A stretch of DNA of 64,000 nucleotides from Leucosporidium creatinivorum (Eukaryota; Basidiomycota; Microbotryomycetes; Leucosporidiales; Leucosporidiaceae), in assembly GCA_001600635.1 (NCBI GenBank), contig BCKL01000004.1, positions 1,078,904 to 1,142,903 of the forward strand, given 5' to 3'. The notes under the pieces were generated by a model. The model was not told the origin of the DNA. It saw only the letters and a list, made by a program, of their open reading frames with translations, and did no database searches. Made by a program: the position numbers and the translations under genes. The stretch's first letter is position 1, and each line of letters begins with the position of its first letter. Positions 4,042 through 31,867 of this stretch are shown piece after piece.

Positions 4042-6575
4042 CTACGTCAAAATCGGCAAAAAGCTGCCCACGACCAACGAAGGGCACGAAAAGAGGTCCC
4101 TGTCCACCCCAAAGCACACCATCAGCTCTCCCATCTCGCGCGGCGAGGAGCCCTCGACGACCGAGCGAGACTCACCGCCGAATCGAGAAGCAAAAAGCGC
4201 AGGGCACGGGCCGCCCCGTCGGTCCTAGGACTACACACTGCATCGTGACGCTCGAGGAGGTCGACTCGAACGCATGCTTGGCGAATGCCTCGTACAGGTC
4301 CACGACCGAGACGGTGTCGAGGAGCTGTTTCCCCACCCAGCGCATCAACTTCCAAACCCTCGAGAAAGATAAGGAAGAGGGAAAAGAGCGACCCACCTCG
4401 AAGATGTACTTCCTCCCCAACAATTCCTCCCTACTCCACCCCGTCAGAAGACAAAACTCTGTCCCAACGAGGCAGATCTCGCCCGTTCGGCGCCAGACGA
4501 CCGTGGGGGTGCCGGAGAAGGAGATGAGCTTGTTGAGTTCGACGAGGGTGCGTTGGAAGGTCCGCTCGACGAAGATCTGGTTTTATCGTGGGAAGGGAGG
4601 GGGGTTAGTGAGGGAGAGAGAGGGATGGGACGGAGACGAACCTCGTCCTCCTCGGTTAAAGGCATTTGGAGGGCGATGAGACTGGGTCGATAGGTGGCGA
4701 GGGCGCGGATGATGCGGAGGATGTCGTTCTTCTCGAATCTGCTCAGCCCAATCACTGCATCAGCTTCCCTTCCCTCCTCGCCCGAAAGAGAGAGATAGAC
4801 AACTCACCGCTCCTTCAGATGCTTGACCAAATAATGATACGACTGAGCATAAGGGTACGGCTTGGTGACGGACCGATAAGCCTCCTCGCCCGTCATCTGT
4901 CCTCCATTCACAGCGAGCTGAGCAGGCTGAGCCTGGGAAGGACCGCTGGCCGTTCCTCCGAACGACTCGGCGCCGAAGAGATCTCCTCCTCCTGCCCCTC
5001 CTCCTCCTCCCTGCACGCCATACGCGGACGAACCGTTCTCCACCTCCTTCCCACCCTCGAACAGCGACTGCACCGCATCCAGCCTCGGCGGGCTCATCTG
5101 AAATCCCCCTTGCGCCGGGCTGGTGGCCGTTGAGGCTCCAGGTCGGAAAGACGAGAGGAACTGCTGGCCGTTGGGTCCGCCTGGTACCGCTGCTCCTCCC
5201 CCTCCGCCCAATGGCGAGTTCATCAACATGGCCTCTCCACTTCCATTCCCCGTTAACCTCGGATCATGGCCCCCTCCCCCTCCCCCTCCTCCTCCGCCGC
5301 CTCCATAGCCGTCCACAGCAAACCCATTGCCATTGAGCATGGAGCTCAAGATTGCGTACTCGAGGTTGGCGGCCTCGGAGCCAAACTCGTTCGAGTTGGA
5401 GAGGAAGGTCGAAGGGTCGTAGTAGGGGAGATTGTCGAAGGAGAAGGGTTGGGGTGGTGCTGCGGGAGTGGGGTCGGGGAGGAGGGCGTTGGGGGACTCT
5501 GCGGTGTGGAGGAGAGGTGTGAGCGAGAGGGAGAGGGGGGGGGGGGAGAGGGAGAGGAGGGACGAACCGCTCCCGCCGAGACCGAGCTCGGGGGTGTCGA
5601 GCGCGATGCCTTCTTCCTCCTCTTGCTGCTGCTGTTGGGGTTGGTAATCGACTGAAGGCTGCTGTTGAGGATGTGGACGACGTTCGAGGACTGTATGTAC
5701 CTCGAAGGTCAGCTGGTGTCGAGGTGAGACCAGCAAGGTCGACTCACGCTCGTCGGGAATCTCCATCAAATACTTGGCCTTCTTCCTCGTGCCATCATGA
5801 CAAGTCTCGGGCACTCCTTTCTTGATGCACCTGGCGCAAGGTCGAGCTGTGTACTCCATCCTCGTTAGCCGGCCAACCCGCTCGCGCAAACAACCCTCAC
5901 CGAACCGAGCGAGGACTCACCATCATCGCAAGTCAAATGCGCCTTCTGACACGCAGCGCAAGCTCTGCCCGCCTTCTTCTTCTTATCCCCACTACTCTGT
6001 TTCCTCTGCTTAACCGGCTTGGTCTTCTTGCCTCCTCCTCCCTCCCCGCTCTCTCCCTCGCCCAACTCGCCATCCTCCGCCTTCCTCTTCCCTTTCCCCT
6101 TCTTACCCGCATTGCCTCCTCCATTCTTCTTCCCTCCCCCCGCCTTACTCCCCTCACTCTCGCTCTCCCCATCCCAACTAATCACCCCACTTTCCCCCCC
6201 TCCCAAGGCCTTAGGTCTCTTCCTCGGCCTCCCTCCCCGGCTGTACGAGCTGCCAGCCTCTGATCCTGCGCCGTCCGTGACGTCGAAATCGGGGAGCGCC
6301 GAGTATTGCCCTGCCCCTCCCCCTCCTTGACCTGAGGCGCTGCTGAGGTCGTAGCCCTCCTCCCCGCCTCCTCCTCCTCCTCCGGAGTGGGCGAGCGAAT
6401 GGTTGGAAGTGAAGAACGAGCTCCCTCCTGCTGCTCCGAGCGGTAGAGCCCACCCTCCCCCTCCCCCTCCAGCGCTAGTATCAACATCGCCCTGCTGGGA
6501 GGTGGAAGCGTAGGGCTGGGTGCTGTACGAGGATTGGGTGGGCGGGTCGTAGTAGTTGTTGTTATTACTGCTCAT
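4042..6575 (-). CDS. ERT1: Zn2Cys6/PAS transcription factor, ERT1 (AcuK-type) regulator of gluconeogenesis
   Basis: A nuclear regulator of gluconeogenic and non-fermentable-carbon genes. The start MSSNNNNYYDPP (6575) precedes a Gly/Ser-rich region and a basic stretch. The zinc cluster CAACQKAHLTC...CARCIKKGVPETC has C-x2-C-x6-C-x5-C-x2-C-x8-C spacing, and an intron interrupts it after CDD. It is followed by the family motif RKKAKYLMEIP. Further on are Gln- and poly-Gly tracts, NLEYAILSSMLNG, YAQSYHYLVKHLKERFEKND, RALATYRPSLIALQMPLTEE, then the PAS domain: GTPTVVWRRTGEICLVG, CLLTGWSREELLGRKYIFEV, CFSIRRDLFSCPSLVVGSFL, ending PILT. The order and motifs match S. cerevisiae Ert1. An in-frame upstream ATG (6830) would add about 85 low-complexity residues; I prefer 6575. 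A second member of this regulator class lies at 58670-61463. Confidence 0.95.
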
Positions 6576-24946: not shown

Positions 24947-27900
24947 ATGGACTCTGCACCGAGTGCGAGTGCGGCCCTACTTCGCCGCAGAAGCGATGGA
25001 GATCCTCCCATGCCAGAAGCGGGAGCCTCGTCGTCGACCACATTGGAGCTGAATCGACTCGACCGCGCTGGAACGTATCCTCCTGGACCTAGTCGACTAC
25101 GAGGTGCTGCACCGTACCCCGTCTCATCTCCCGTCGGCGCTCCCATCCCCCTTCGCCGACCCTCCGCCACTCCTTCCTCCATCGCCTATTCGACCTGGGA
25201 CGCTCGTCTTTCGCCCATCGACCCTCCCGACCAGGGGAAAGGCTGCATAGATGACGCTGGAACCCCCGTCGACTCGCTGTCGCCCGTCGCAACCGGTTCC
25301 ATCCCCTCCTCCGCCGTTTCGCCGAGGGAGCTCTCGGACGAGGCGCCCATTCGCATTCGGCGCGTAGGCGCGCTCGGTATTAGTGTGGGATCGGATTCAG
25401 AAGATGGAGATGTCAGCGTCCACCCTTCGAGTACCAGCGAGAGGCCTCGGAAACGGGGTCGATTCGAGGTCGATCGGAACCGAAGCTCCATCAGCAGCGA
25501 CGAGCTGGACTTTGGTGACGATGCAGACGAGGAGAGCGCGGCAGGCGGCAGAAGAGGAGGGAAGAGCAGGAGAAGGGGCCAGGGAGTGGCAGAGGGACAG
25601 TTCAGATCCATCGTCGACGACTTGACCCGAGAGAGTGAGTCCGATCTCGTTCGCTCCTGTTCTATCCTCGAGTTTTCGCTGAATTTCTTCTCTCTGCATC
25701 GTGACAGACCAAGCTCTCAAGGCTCAACTGAGGCAGTACGAGATCAGTCAGCTGCCGCAAGAGGTCAAGAAGGAGCGGGTGCTCGAGGTGCGATACTTCG
25801 GCGGGCTGGCAAGGTTCGTTCTTGCCGTTCTTACTCGCTTTGCGGAGAGAGGACTGACCGTTCTTTACACAGTGATCGCGAGCAAGAGCTGTCGGACCTA
25901 CTCGCTCGATACGTGCAGCGTCTACCCCCCTCGGCATCGACCATCGTCGACTCGGCCGACTCCCATCCTCCTCCTTCGACGTCTTCTTCGCACGCCGACT
26001 CGCCACCACATTTACTACCGCCTTCCCTCCAAGAAGCCCTGCGTTCACCAAGCAACTCGCCCCCTCCTCCCATCATCCCCGAGCGACCTGTCGTCCGCCA
26101 GCGCCGAAAGCGCAACGAGCGTGAGATGCTCGCCGGACCCAGCAACTCCGGTGTAGAGCCACAGTCTCTTACCGGTACTGGATCCGGACTGCACGTCGAG
26201 GACTCTGGGAGGAAGTCAAAACGAGCCCGGCTGGATCCATCACCGATCCCCTCCTCGCCGGCACACCTCGAGGCCAAGGACGAGCCGAGGGCCAAAGAGC
26301 TCATCGCGGTACTCGAGAAGCTCTTCGAGGACTCGATCGACCTGCCTTTCGAGGCGCCTCGCTCGCGTAAGCCCACGCTGGCGTCGCAGAACGGCACCAA
26401 CGAGGCGTACCTCGGTCATCTCCTCGAGAACGACGACCTCTCCGGCGGCTGGACCTTCCTCAACCTCGTCTGCACCATGGCTCAGATCCATCGCTTCAGC
26501 GTCACCATCCCCTTCGTTCGCTCCGCCGTCATCTCGTACTCGTCCAAGCTGGAAATCTCGCCCGACGGCAAGAAGATCCGCTGGGTCGGTCCTAGTCCAC
26601 AACACTCGCCCGCCTATGGACGCAAGCACGACTCGGACCCCCCTCCCCTTACTCGAGCGCCGTCGAGCACCCGATCGAGCTCCACTTCCGGCCTCACCAC
26701 CTCGTCGTATGAAAGCGCGACTCGCGTAAGCGGCTCGGGAGAAGGGTCGGCCGAGGCGTCTACCACCGCCACTTCCGTCGCTCCTCACCCCTCCGACATC
26801 CTCCATAAAGCCAGGCTCGCCCCTACACCTCTCCAGCCCCGAGCGTCAGCCGCTTCGAGTTCGGCACCGGTCAGCGGGGCCGTCACCGAGAGCACATCGA
26901 ACACGTCCGAGGTCGTCAGCAAAGCATCAACACCTACGGAGCCTTGGGCGCACCGCTACGTGCCCTGTCCTTACCGATCTCGAGACGGAGCGGTTTCGCC
27001 TTGGCCGAGCACGCCGGACGATCCGTTGTCGACTGAGGACGAGCAAGGATCGACCTCAACGGGCATGCTCGTCTTCTACGCGGACGCTGGTTTCTGCTCC
27101 GACTTCTCCAAGTGCCGCCCTTCCGCCTCAGCCTTCCCAGGTCGCCCATCTCCCCTCAAGCTACTCGGCGCTTCGACAACGACTGAAGCCCAGGACGAGG
27201 ACGAACGCTCTCCTCCTTCCCCTGCCATCACTTCACTGGACTCGGTAGATGACCTCGCCGTTATCTACGGAGAGCAAGGAACCGTCATGCACCCGACGTC
27301 GTCGTCCTCGGCCGACTCGCCAATCGCTCAAGCCGAGGAGGTCCAGGACATCGATAGCTTCCGCACGGCCACCGGAATGACGGATACGACCATGGCCGAC
27401 CTCTTCATGATCATCGTCTCAACTCGCCTCTCAGTCTCGCCTCTCGTCTCGAGCGACGCCAGCTCGGAGCGCAACGCCGCCTCGGCATTCGACTCGACGG
27501 ATCTCGCCGCCTTCCCAGCCAAGCAAAGTCGCTTGCAACAGTCCATCGTTTCCTCCGACGTCGTCTACCACAGTCCTCGCGTCACGCCTCGCCGTCCGAT
27601 CCTCCTCCACACCCTCTCGAGCGATGATGGGACCCTCGCGTCAGAGTCGACTTCCTCCTCCGACTCTCCGAAGCTGGTAAGTGTTACATTCTCCAACCTT
27701 AGGACTATTGCTAACCTCTCATATACCTCTACAGCGCTCACTCCTCCAGCAACGCCCTCCCTCGCCCGACTACCTCCTCTCCCTCTCCCTCCCCTTCTTC
27801 TCCTGGGCACCTCGCGAGACGGGCACAGCCTACCGCTGGAGCGGCGCCGACAAGGAGTACGCCAACTCGGACTCGGTCGCTGGCTCGGGAAATCGTGCAG

Positions 27901-28052
27901 GAGCTGGAGCAGGAGCGCCGAGGCCGAAGACGGGGAACCGCCTCTCGCCCGACTCGGGCAACATGGGCGAGCGTGACATGTCGGTCGCCCCTGCTAGTAG
28001 TGAGGACCTGGCACCGATTGACCTCGATGATAGCTTCGTTGTAGCTTTGTAG
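24947..28052 (+). CDS. FRQ: FREQUENCY (FRQ)-like circadian clock protein
   Basis: Four exons (24947-25634, 25708-25813, 25873-27676, 27735-28052) encode 971 residues, close to Neurospora FRQ (989). FRQ is the negative element of the fungal clock: it dimerises by an N-terminal coiled coil, binds FRH and casein kinase 1, and represses the White Collar complex. Seen here: nuclear-localisation-like SERPRKRGRFEVDRNR (about 160), and a coiled coil NQALKAQLRQYEISQLPQEV to SDREQELSDLLARYVQRLPP (230-290). Next is RAKELIAVLEKLFED. The hallmark block (about 450-500) reads GGWTFLNLVCTMAQIHRFSV, TIPFVRSAVISYSSKLEISP, DGKKIRWVGPS, against the FRQ pattern GWxYLNLLCxLAQLH...DGRKIRWRG. GMLVFYADAGFCSDFSKC (about 660) matches a second FRQ block. 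Near the C-terminus are MADLFMIIVSTR, YLLSLSLPFFSWAPRETGTA and a Ser/Asp-rich end. Neither FRH nor WC-1 is in this window. Confidence 0.9.
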
Positions 28053-28562: not shown

Positions 28563-29566
28563 AGTGAGTCGAGACGCGCCAGAGCACCGCAAAGTACAGT
28601 CTAATCTCTCGGTACTTCTTCACAGTGTCTCGCCTCTCTACGGCATCCCCTCGCCGCCTCGTCGCCTCTTCCGCTCCCTCCTCCTGGTCCCTCTCCTGCA
28701 CACCATCATTCACCTTCCACCGCAATGCCTCCTCCCGCTCCGGCTCATCCTCTCAATGGCTCCAACGCCAACGTCAAGACCCCTTCGTCCGAGCTCGCGC
28801 TTCCGGAGAGCTGGATCCCTCCGCCCCTGCCGATGCCTCCTCGCACTTCGTCTCCCGCTCCGCCTTCAAGCTGGTCGAGCTGCAACAAAAGTCACGAGGA
28901 ACCCTCATCCGACCGGGGATGTGCATCGTGGATCTGGGAGCAGCGCCGGGAGGATGGGTGCAGGCGGCAGCGAGGGAGCTGGCGGTTCGCGCTGCGAAGG
29001 GGAAACGCAAGGGAGACGGCGTGATTGTGGGAGTCGACTTGCTTCCGCTGAGCTCCGAAGTCTCCTCAATGCCGGGCGTCTCCTTCGTACGCGGCGACTT
29101 CCTGGATCCAGTCATTCAAGCGCAGGTGGTCGCTGCTCTCGCCGAAGCTCGAGGAGGGAAGGCAAGAGCTCAAGTGGACCTCGTACTCTCAGACATGCTC
29201 GCAAACCTCTCTGGAAACCCCTTCCGCGACGGTCAGCTTTCCATCGACCTCTGTGAAGCAGCACTCGCCTTCGCCTTGGACAACCTCGCGCGGAGCAAGC
29301 CTCTCTCCGCCGACTCGCCGACTACCAAGGGGAAGAAGAAGCGTGGACCGTCACTCGTGATGAAGTGCTTGCAGTCCTCGGTCTCTCCGGCGTTCCAGGA
29401 CCTCCTCAAGGAGCATTTCGAGGGCGTCGCTTGGTCAAAGCCGAGCTCGAGTCGGCCGGAGAGTAGGGAAGGCTATTGGGTGTGCAGTGGGCTGAAGGCG
29501 CAGAAGGGAAGAGGCCAAGATAGTTGGGAGGGTGAAGAGGCCGAAGGAGATGGAATCTACTTCTGA
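28563..29566 (+). CDS. MRM2: Mitochondrial 2'-O-ribose rRNA methyltransferase MRM2 (FtsJ/RrmJ family)
   Basis: A SAM-dependent enzyme that methylates a uridine in the large mitochondrial rRNA. The start codon appears split: A28563, then an intron (28564-28625, GTGAGT to CACAG), then TG at 28626, giving MSRLSTASPRRLVASSAPSS. No other ATG lies in frame before the conserved core. The N-terminus is Arg/Ser-rich, as for a mitochondrial presequence. The core has FVSRSAFKLVELQQKSRGTL (first catalytic Lys), IVDLGAAPGGWVQAAARELA (SAM motif I), VIVGVDLLPL, FVRGDFLDP, VDLVLSDMLANLSGNPFRDG (catalytic Asp), SLVMKCLQ (second Lys) and SREGYWVCSG (Glu), completing the K-D-K-E tetrad. It ends EGDGIYF. Length of 313 residues fits the family. 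Confidence 0.93.
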
Positions 29567-29732: not shown

Positions 29733-31677
29733 CTACCGGAACGGCGCCTCTCTCGTCCGTCGATAAGGCAGGTCTATGTGGAAGCCTCGTACCCACGAAT
29801 AACAGACGACCGACTCTGGCGGCTTCAGTGGCTCCCAGTCGATGATGGAGGATGGAGATTGCGAGTTGAGCTCGCTGCGCCGAGTGAGGTCGACGAGGGA
29901 AGGGTGGTTGTAGACGTCCTGGGCGTAGCTGACGTGCACCGAAGGGACGATCTGCGAAGTACTACGTTAGCTCAGCTATCGGCAAGCATGAAACTGCAAA
30001 CTCACCATCCACCGATTCAGTCCTTGCGCCCAAAAGTCCCGAGCAAGAGTCTTGCACTCGGAGGCGGCTGCGAAGGAGAGCAGAGATCAGCTCTGAGTGC
30101 TGGGAGGACGAGCGTAGAGACTCACCACACTGTCCTGGTTCATTAAAAGTGCTGCGGAAGAGCGTTGCGGGGCCGTTGACGCCGCGGAAAGGTGCAGCGG
30201 GCAGAGCGAGCATGCCGTTCCAGCAGGAGTCTGCGGCGAAAGGAAGCATCAGCGATGCTCCTCAGCTCGGGGAGGCAAGCTGGACTCACAAACTGGTACA
30301 GGAAGACCTTGCGCGAAGATGTGGCGAGATGCTTCGGAGCCAGGTTGGTCGAAGAGCTCGTCGATGCCGTCCCTCGTCTCGGCGAGCGTGTCGAACCTCG
30401 ACCGGAGCATGTCTCCGGTGATGGTGCGGCTGACCCCTGTTCACCGTAAGACAAAGGAACGGTCAGCTCTATTCTCGAGCGCGTACAGACCAGCCGAGCG
30501 AGAGAAACGTACAGTTGTCGTAGAACTTGACGCTCTTGAAGCCCAACCAGCCGAACCAGGATTGCGTGGCGCGCCAATCCATCGCACACGCTGCATGAGC
30601 GTTCTGCTTCTTGCGCTGGTATAGCAGCTCCAGCGCGTCTCGGGGGCAAACGAAGACGTCGTTGATGAACACGACCTCCTCGTAGCTCCGTTTCCGGCCA
30701 TCCTCACCGCCGAGGGTTCCGTTGACGGGGGCGAGGGCATAGTTGCGGTAGACCGAGAGCTGAGCGATCCTGTCGACCTTCTTCCAGTCCGTCTTGCGAG
30801 AATCCGAGACGACGGTGTGCGAGATGCCGGCGCTGGTGAGGGCTGCCGCGAAATGAGCGAGGGCGAGGGTGGTGTTGTCGGTCGAGCCGTTCTCAAAGAT
30901 GGAGATGTGACTGTTGTTGGTGCCGAGGAAGTGGGAGAGATCGAGGAGGGTTCGGGCGAGGGTCGGGAGAACGGCTTGGTTGTTGTAGAGGTTGAGCGCA
31001 AAGAAGTAGGGTCCTCCGGAGGGTAGCGCGGCGTACTTGGTTTCCTCTGCAGCCGTCCATGCACAGCTGAGCGTCGAAGGCGGCGCCGAGAGCTCCAGCA
31101 GCCGCTTGTCGAGGTGCGTCTGCACGGCCGCTCGCGACGGCTTCTCCGCGAGGCCGAATGGCTGTACCCTAGTCTCGACCGCTTCACCTTTGGGGATGAG
31201 AGGGTTGGCGAATACGGCGTGTGCGTAGGCGTCGTGTCGGAGAAGGAGGAACTTGACCAGCCAGTAGCCTACAAAGACAGCGAGGGCGAGTCCCAGCAGC
31301 AGCGCGAGGTGGACGGTCGAGCGAAGGAGGCCAGCGTATCGCGAGGAGCGGTAATGACTGGTATTCTTGCTGCTCCTCCGCCTTGCATGCGATTCCAAGT
31401 CCTCCTCGTAGGTGTAGCCGTCGCGATTCGTCGACAGCGAGGGCCTGGAGGCGGCAGAGTCGAGAGAGGCCTTGCGCACGAGAACGTCCAATTCGTCGCC
31501 GTCGTCCAGTGAGGAGCGAGATCCATAATCTGCACTGGAGCGCATCCTGCCCGCTTGCGACGCGAGGGAGAGTCGGCGGCGTGAACGAGAAACTTGAGGC
31601 GAGAGCGAACCCGTGAGGGCAATCTGGGGCGCGGGGGGAGCGCTGGCCAGGGAGTCCATTTTGGGCTCGTTCACCAT
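29733..31677 (-). CDS. GT69 glycosyltransferase, CMT1/CAP59-like alpha-1,3-mannosyltransferase
   Basis: A type II Golgi membrane enzyme of the family that includes Cryptococcus Cmt1 and Cap59. About 115 cytosolic residues (Ser/Arg-rich, MVNEPKMDSLASAPPAPQIA onward) precede a transmembrane segment, STVHLALLLGLALAVFVGYW. The lumenal domain has GPYFFALNLYNNQAVLPTLA, FLGTNNSHISIFENGSTDNT, VSDSRKTDWKKVDRIAQLSV, VVFINDVFVCPRDALELLYQ, ACAMDWRATQSWFGW and FYDNWVSRTITGDMLR. Later exons give GLPVPVYSCWNGMLALPAAP, SECKTLARDFWAQGLNRWMI and VPSVHVSYAQDVYNHPSLVD. The IFENGSTDNT and FINDVFVCP motifs are family hallmarks. The acceptor and product are unknown here; relatives build cell-surface or capsule mannans. 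It converges on MRM2. Confidence 0.93.
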
Positions 31678-31867
31678 TGTGGTACACGTCTACCGACACG
31701 TCGAGCACAGCATGGTAGACCTCCAAGCTCGCACCAGAGTCGCAAAGAGAAACAAGAAACGATCGCTATTGCACGAAAGCCGAGGGTGCCCCTCCTCTCA
31801 AGATCAACCTCGGCCTTCTCGTCAGCCTTCTGCCGTGACTATCCACCATCGAGGTATCGCCTTATCT

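Follow-up and report, generated by a model that had tools for sequence, protein, structure and literature searches.

A FREQUENCY homologue in the basidiomycete Leucosporidium creatinivorum with a predicted La-motif-like core

We analysed a stretch of 64,000 nucleotides (hereafter the window) from contig BCKL01000004.1 of Leucosporidium creatinivorum. It carries a gene, frq, whose product of 971 amino acids is almost certainly a true homologue of the clock protein FREQUENCY (FRQ), judging by its conserved segments. The core of this protein is predicted to have the La-motif fold, a winged helix; we give this reading a probability of about 0.8. The first-pass annotation had proposed an FRQ-like protein of 971 residues in a basidiomycete, with several FRQ segments in a given order, and this proposal is borne out. 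The length and the end agree with a spliced model with three introns, the FRQ profile matches far above its cut-off, and the named close matches are all Microbotryomycetes. All the named segments are found in the spliced protein, in the order given. They include LEKLF at residues 412-416, GGWTFLNLVCTMAQIH...SPDGKKIRW at 456-502 and GMLVFYADAGFC at 662-673.

Family identity and relatives of the frq gene

The Pfam FRQ family (PF09421; curated cut-off 26.6 bits) matches the spliced protein with 79.1 bits (E 2.9e-22) in two stretches. It is the sole Pfam-A family among the matches listed for this protein, up to E 0.1. The unspliced translation reaches 58.3 bits (matches up to E 1 listed), and NCBIfam gave no match to residues 1-504. 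A single FRQ match is present in the genome (27.7 Mb, 63 contigs). The gene and its conserved segments can thus be read directly from the DNA.

For the comparison with ascomycetes, we used an N. crassa FRQ sequence as bait. Of 1279 candidates, 1168 proteins reached E <= 0.001, and the top one was 'FRQ [Neurospora crassa]' (P0015). We made profiles of 15 basidiomycete-type FRQs and of 45 ascomycete FRQs, the latter being P0015 and 44 random picks of 850-1040 aa from the best 120 of the 1168. Each region was tested with hhalign against 40 column shuffles, with E-values that hold for a single comparison. The profiles align collinearly across 496 columns, window residues 219-856 against ascomycete 151-869 (E 2.5e-39). 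More precisely, the coiled coil, FCD1, the core that docks casein kinase 1 (CK1), the FCxDxS block and the element that binds the helicase FRH follow the same order as in ascomycete FRQ. None of the 40 shuffles scored as high for the coiled coil (E 1.5e-19), the FCxDxS block (E 5.7e-9), the FFD element alone (E 5.2e-6) or the C-terminal part that includes it (E 1.8e-6). Likewise, BLASTP against N. crassa FRQ shows 25/48 identities (52%) in the core, with E 2e-15, and 24/70 in the coil, with E 5e-8. Residues L233 and L237 of the window protein align to Neurospora L165 and L169, which act in FRQ-FRQ binding according to a passage of PMC4592989. The Neurospora positions of FCD1 (319-326), FCD2 (488-495) and FFD (774-782, with RR783) come from parts of PMC11045787 and PMC10963029.

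Compared with Neurospora FRQ (P0015, 989 aa), the window protein is alike in segment order, length and the L165/L169 equivalents. However, the halves of the core are separated by 18 residues here and by about 120 in Neurospora, the first 213 residues do not resemble ascomycete FRQ (33/40 shuffles as high or higher), and one of the two FFD arginines is present. The C-tail gave no usable match to ascomycete FRQ (1/40 shuffles as high).

Some details count against the clock role proposed below. The FCD1 region alone was equalled by one of the 40 shuffles. The window FFD keeps its hydrophobic part with an incomplete arginine pair: the first essential arginine is there, and the second is missing (TRL). 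Among the basidiomycete-type sequences, the DxFxxxV element is kept in 15/15 and the first arginine in just 7/15. The FRQs of Microbotryomycetes spp. JL201, NB124-2 and JL221 have no arginine directly after FFD. In the ascomycete set, 39/45 fit the FFD motif pattern, and 36 of these 39 carry RR, KR or RK.

With frq residues 400-760 as the query, 7990 candidates were scored; 11 of them reached E <= 0.01, each with a precomputed PF09421 assignment. A profile search of 7990 candidates with the basidiomycete-type alignment also gave 11 proteins, three of them new. All of these were basidiomycete-type, so ascomycete FRQ was not reached from this alignment among those candidates. The named relatives are JL201 (P0006), NB124-2 (P0007), JL221 (P0012), Rhodosporidiobolus poonsookiae and R. 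ruineniae (P0010, P0011). The recorded lineage of JL201 and of R. poonsookiae is Basidiomycota, Pucciniomycotina, Microbotryomycetes. For the FRQ of the relative P0013, identity to the window protein is 98% in the core and 83% in exon 3. The named microbotryomycete FRQs are longer than the window protein (1167-1210 aa). We read the window gene as the FRQ orthologue of a microbotryomycete.

Outside the Neurospora-like parts, other segments are strongly conserved in P0001-P0014 and the window protein, in the rows that reach them. They consist of RIRRVGALGISV, LAGPSNSGVEP.SLTGTGSG, ASTAAT and a C-terminal PIDLDES.

The ancestor of these basidiomycetes might have gained frq by horizontal transfer from an ascomycete. 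The confinement of the named close matches to one class, among the 7990 candidates, fits such an event. However, identity over the core stays at a uniformly low 31-38% for 31 ascomycete FRQs, and the N-terminus bears no relation to theirs, which argues against a recent transfer from the sampled ascomycetes. Judged by their names, the ascomycete FRQs compared are mostly or all Sordariomycetes. We consider the transfer improbable.

The predicted La-motif fold of the core

In the predicted structure, the FRQ core has the La-motif fold. When structures were compared and ordered by Z, La proteins filled ranks 1-21 in one search and 1-17 in another. The fold itself is a prediction. The sequence agrees with it weakly, independently of the structure. 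A profile of 11 basidiomycete-type cores gave eight matches against 177,635 PDB sequences, and six of them were La proteins (best E 0.096). We also pooled nine basidiomycete-type cores with four from ascomycetes. With the profile of this joint set, La proteins took ranks 1-7 of 11 in PDB, with E 0.0067-0.093, and the next unrelated match had 0.81. The seven were five human constructs, Dictyostelium 2m5w and 1s29. With hhalign against six La-motif sequences, the E-values for a single comparison were 1.5e-5 (basidiomycete cores), 1.9e-5 (ascomycete cores) and 1.6e-6 (joint), and 0/200 shuffles scored as high for each of the three profiles.

Other searches count against this agreement. Pfam La matched none of 8 sequences, with E allowed up to 10. 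The whole basidiomycete-type alignment gave four PDB matches, the best at E 0.043, and no La protein was among them. With the four ascomycete cores alone, La was not found among 19 PDB matches, which were headed by KptA (E 0.18). It was the addition of the divergent basidiomycete copies that made La emerge by sequence. We also ran hmmsearch with the joint profile on 6 real La-motif sequences and 3000 shuffled ones. Human and Dictyostelium La rise clearly above the shuffles (E 1.5e-4 and 4.7e-4), unlike the other four of the six. S. pombe C1527.03 and LARP4B lie among the shuffles (E 2 and 3.6), and LARP1 and the genome's own La-type motif are outside the best 15 rows. The helix before the GW block is placed inconsistently by hhalign, and the HMMER matches barely exceed this block.

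The core could instead be a different kind of winged helix, for instance one like the N-terminal lobe of the RNA 2'-phosphotransferase KptA/Tpt1, with the La match as convergence on a widespread fold. Against it stand the La ranks by Z, the gap between the joint-profile La matches and the next unrelated one, and the shuffles that never reached the hhalign scores. We find convergence rather unlikely, and the La-motif fold remains our reading of the core.

The genome's own La-motif gene (contig C23, about 383.5 kb, L042) is split by an intron, and neither exon match reaches the Pfam cut-off. Its best PDB relative is LARP1. No other La match is among those listed by a six-frame search of the genome.

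On the La motif, the first helix was mapped by hand, without gap, from structural ranges alone, and the place of FCD1 follows from this map. Anchored at the first aligned pair, model residue 133 and La residue 7, FCD1 would fall on La residues 17-24. The register of the GW block puts FCD2 on La residues 51-58, a place supported by sequence and structure. In human La, the RNA 3' end is held by Q20, Y23, Y24, D33, F35 and F55. The same positions are V411, K414, L415, E442, Y444 and M467 in the window FRQ, and R, Q, L, M, Y and L in Neurospora FRQ. Among these contact residues, the window FRQ retains only the aromatic character at F35. Conversely, E22, F25, G45 and A71 (La numbering) are invariant wherever a row has a residue, and W46 is found in 58/60 (15 + 45 rows). 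Since the contact residues are mostly replaced and E22, F25, G45, W46 and A71 are kept, the RNA grip of La seems mostly gone and its buried frame retained.

The two FCD motifs would be neighbouring helices of one La-like domain, and this would account for their acting as one CK1 site in Neurospora, where they lie about 160 residues apart. For Neurospora FRQ, a predicted ordered core ('a small, clustered core') with the CK1-binding region, and short distances with rigidity for labels at 490 and 658, are described in PMC10963029. There, FRQ is described as mostly disordered apart from this small core. The main texts of PMC10963029, PMC11045787, PMC10140173 and PMC4592989 make no mention of a La-type or winged fold, and no literature-wide search was made.

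Compared with La and LARP proteins (human La, Dictyostelium La, LARP7, LARP1), the FRQ core has its RNA-contact residues mostly replaced and is not recognised by Pfam La. Pfam found no RRM in the window protein. Two of the three La features tested are missing, so we file the gene under FRQ and not under La/LARP. We know of no account of where FRQ came from. A descent from a La/LARP protein has, in our estimate, nearly an even chance. A broader scenario is more tentative. In it, FRQ would come from a La-related RNA binder whose pocket for RNA 3' ends became a CK1 dock, which would make a single site of the two FCD motifs. With the MTR4 partner, the negative arm of the clock would be a converted RNA-processing adaptor. 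Basidiomycetes with FRQ would have retained the finger of WC-1 as well. The full loop would be at least as old as the Dikarya ancestor, and FRQ and the finger would have been dismantled together in other basidiomycetes.

Partner genes and the proposed clock

The genome holds genes for the three partners named in the first-pass annotation: FRH, WC-1 and WC-2. Their domains were tested per exon. MTR4/FRH is represented by exons on contig C23 with the MTR4 stalk and beta-barrel (MTR4_beta-barrel, E 4.1e-53); contig C6 carries another DSHCT gene, which resembles Ski2. WC-2 is on C1, with a PAS exon and a GATA finger (E 9e-16). Two WC-1 genes are on minus strands, at about 431-434 kb of C8 and 486-490 kb of C16 (L023, L027). 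Both have the LOV motif GRNCRFLQ, a further PAS domain and a NVFDEL...SWQFEL stretch, and in the C16 copy an intron falls inside the LOV motif. WC-1a and WC-1b each have a complete GATA finger (E 5.9e-13 and 6.8e-13). The basic run RKKRKR precedes the finger in WC-1a, and WC-1b has no such run.

FRQ and a zinc-finger WC-1 occur together in this genome. The basic 'DBD' region and the finger of Neurospora WC-1 are reportedly required for its circadian functions and dispensable for those in light. According to parts of PMC4831468, Ustilago Wco1 has no zinc finger, and basidiomycete WC-1 is said to lack it. In Neurospora, FRQ binds the WCC at the 'DBD' region of WC-1, as stated in a portion of PMC7656774. 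The partner genes are visible in the sequence, and the gene set for an FRQ/WCC loop is very probably present, CK1 not being among the components counted.

Two further LOV-type PAS exons lie on C6, at 394025 (GRNCRFLQSE) and 679803 (GRNCRFLTGP), and are possibly other photoreceptors. In the window, a PAS match at 4403-4531 on the minus strand was rejected as a clock gene; it looks like a Zn2Cys6 regulator. It lies near a Zn2Cys6-like cluster, ARACAACQKAHLTC, and the gene presumably resembles Ert1/AcuK-type regulators.

By analogy with Neurospora, from which every binding event, the repression and the rhythm are inferred, FRQ would work as a mostly disordered scaffold. The coiled coil would pair two FRQ chains. 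The La-motif-like winged-helix core would dock CK1 through the paired FCD1 and FCD2, and the FFD strand would bind the MTR4-type helicase FRH. As a complex, FRQ, FRH and CK1 would then attach to WC-1 next to the zinc finger and switch off WC-1/WC-2. As WC-1/WC-2 would drive frq, the result would be a negative feedback loop that light can reset. We consider it somewhat more probable than not that such a loop works in this organism.

The case for a working loop has its weak points. Since FRH/MTR4 is conserved among eukaryotes, finding it here carries little weight. We saw no clear GATC enrichment in the 564 bp upstream of frq: there are 4 GATC, and 14.2% of 2000 random window stretches have at least as many, although the WCC motif of this lineage may differ. 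In Verticillium dahliae, frq is said not to cycle in a passage of PMC11105155 and to be largely unresponsive to light in a passage of PMC9508176. The non-cycling frq of Verticillium means that the presence of the gene is no guarantee of a clock. The window gene might thus be a real FRQ that is no clock part here, a CK1/MTR4 scaffold for light adaptation, stress or RNA metabolism. Besides the Verticillium report, the unconserved FFD arginine pair, the lack of a clear promoter signal and the resemblance of the core to an RNA-binding fold agree with that role. However, both WC-1 paralogues retain the zinc finger, and FRQ itself has preserved the coil, the FCD2 core and the hydrophobic part of the FFD. 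A role outside the clock is conceivable, and we hold it to be doubtful next to the feedback loop.

Gene structure, neighbours and significance

The unspliced open reading frame runs from the ATG at 24947 across the introns to 27976 (1009 aa). Once the three GT-AG introns are removed, the stop codon is at 28050-28052. Alternative splice choices give 942-979 residues (8 models above 900 aa). No in-frame ATG, GTG or TTG precedes the frq start in the first exon.

Table 1. Features of the frq gene, in window coordinates.
Feature	Position	Strand	Detail	Basis
frq homologue	24947-28052	+	971 aa	gene model and Pfam FRQ match
frq exons	24947-25634, 25708-25813, 25873-27676, 27735-28052	+		gene model
frq intron 1	25635-25707	+	73 nt	GT-AG
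frq intron 2	25814-25872	+	59 nt	GT-AG
frq intron 3	27677-27734	+	58 nt	GT-AG
Coiled coil	25586-25924	+	residues 214-282; spans introns 1 and 2	BLASTP, hhalign
Conserved core, predicted La-motif fold	26270-26590	+	residues 398-504	AF2, Foldseek/VIA, profiles
FCD1 equivalent	26300-26323	+	residues 408-415, LIAVLEKL	whole-protein alignment to Neurospora 319-326
FCD2 equivalent	26465-26488	+	residues 463-470, LVCTMAQI	aligned to Neurospora 488-495
GMLVFYADAGFCSDFSK block	27062-27112	+	residues 662-678	hhalign
FFD-like FRH-binding element	27398-27427	+	residues 774-783, DLFMIIVSTR	hhalign

Directly downstream of frq is an FtsJ-like methyltransferase gene (28625-29563, plus strand; PF01728, E 4.3e-39). 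A CAP59-type mannosyltransferase gene is at 30469-31689 on the minus strand (PF11735, Cryptococcal mannosyltransferase 1, E 9.9e-39). Rfam had no match at gathering scores within the window.

A basidiomycete frq as such is not new, and the window gene joins a known family. FRQ in Basidiomycota was already reported from annotation, as a passage of PMC9508176 states without naming a basidiomycete species; a 2024 paper still places frq in Ascomycota only (PMC11105155). A literature search for frq with Rhodotorula found nothing. Two points deserve the attention of specialists: the La-like core, and the presence of zinc-finger WC-1 paralogues in a basidiomycete that has FRQ. The reading of the core concerns the whole FRQ family: the divergent basidiomycete copies allow its comparison with other families, and they point to a La-motif origin. 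If true, this origin would single out specific residues for mutagenesis and might explain the partnership with an MTR4 helicase. In addition, a basidiomycete with FRQ, FRH, WC-2 and a zinc-finger WC-1 would make the age of the clock testable outside the ascomycetes.
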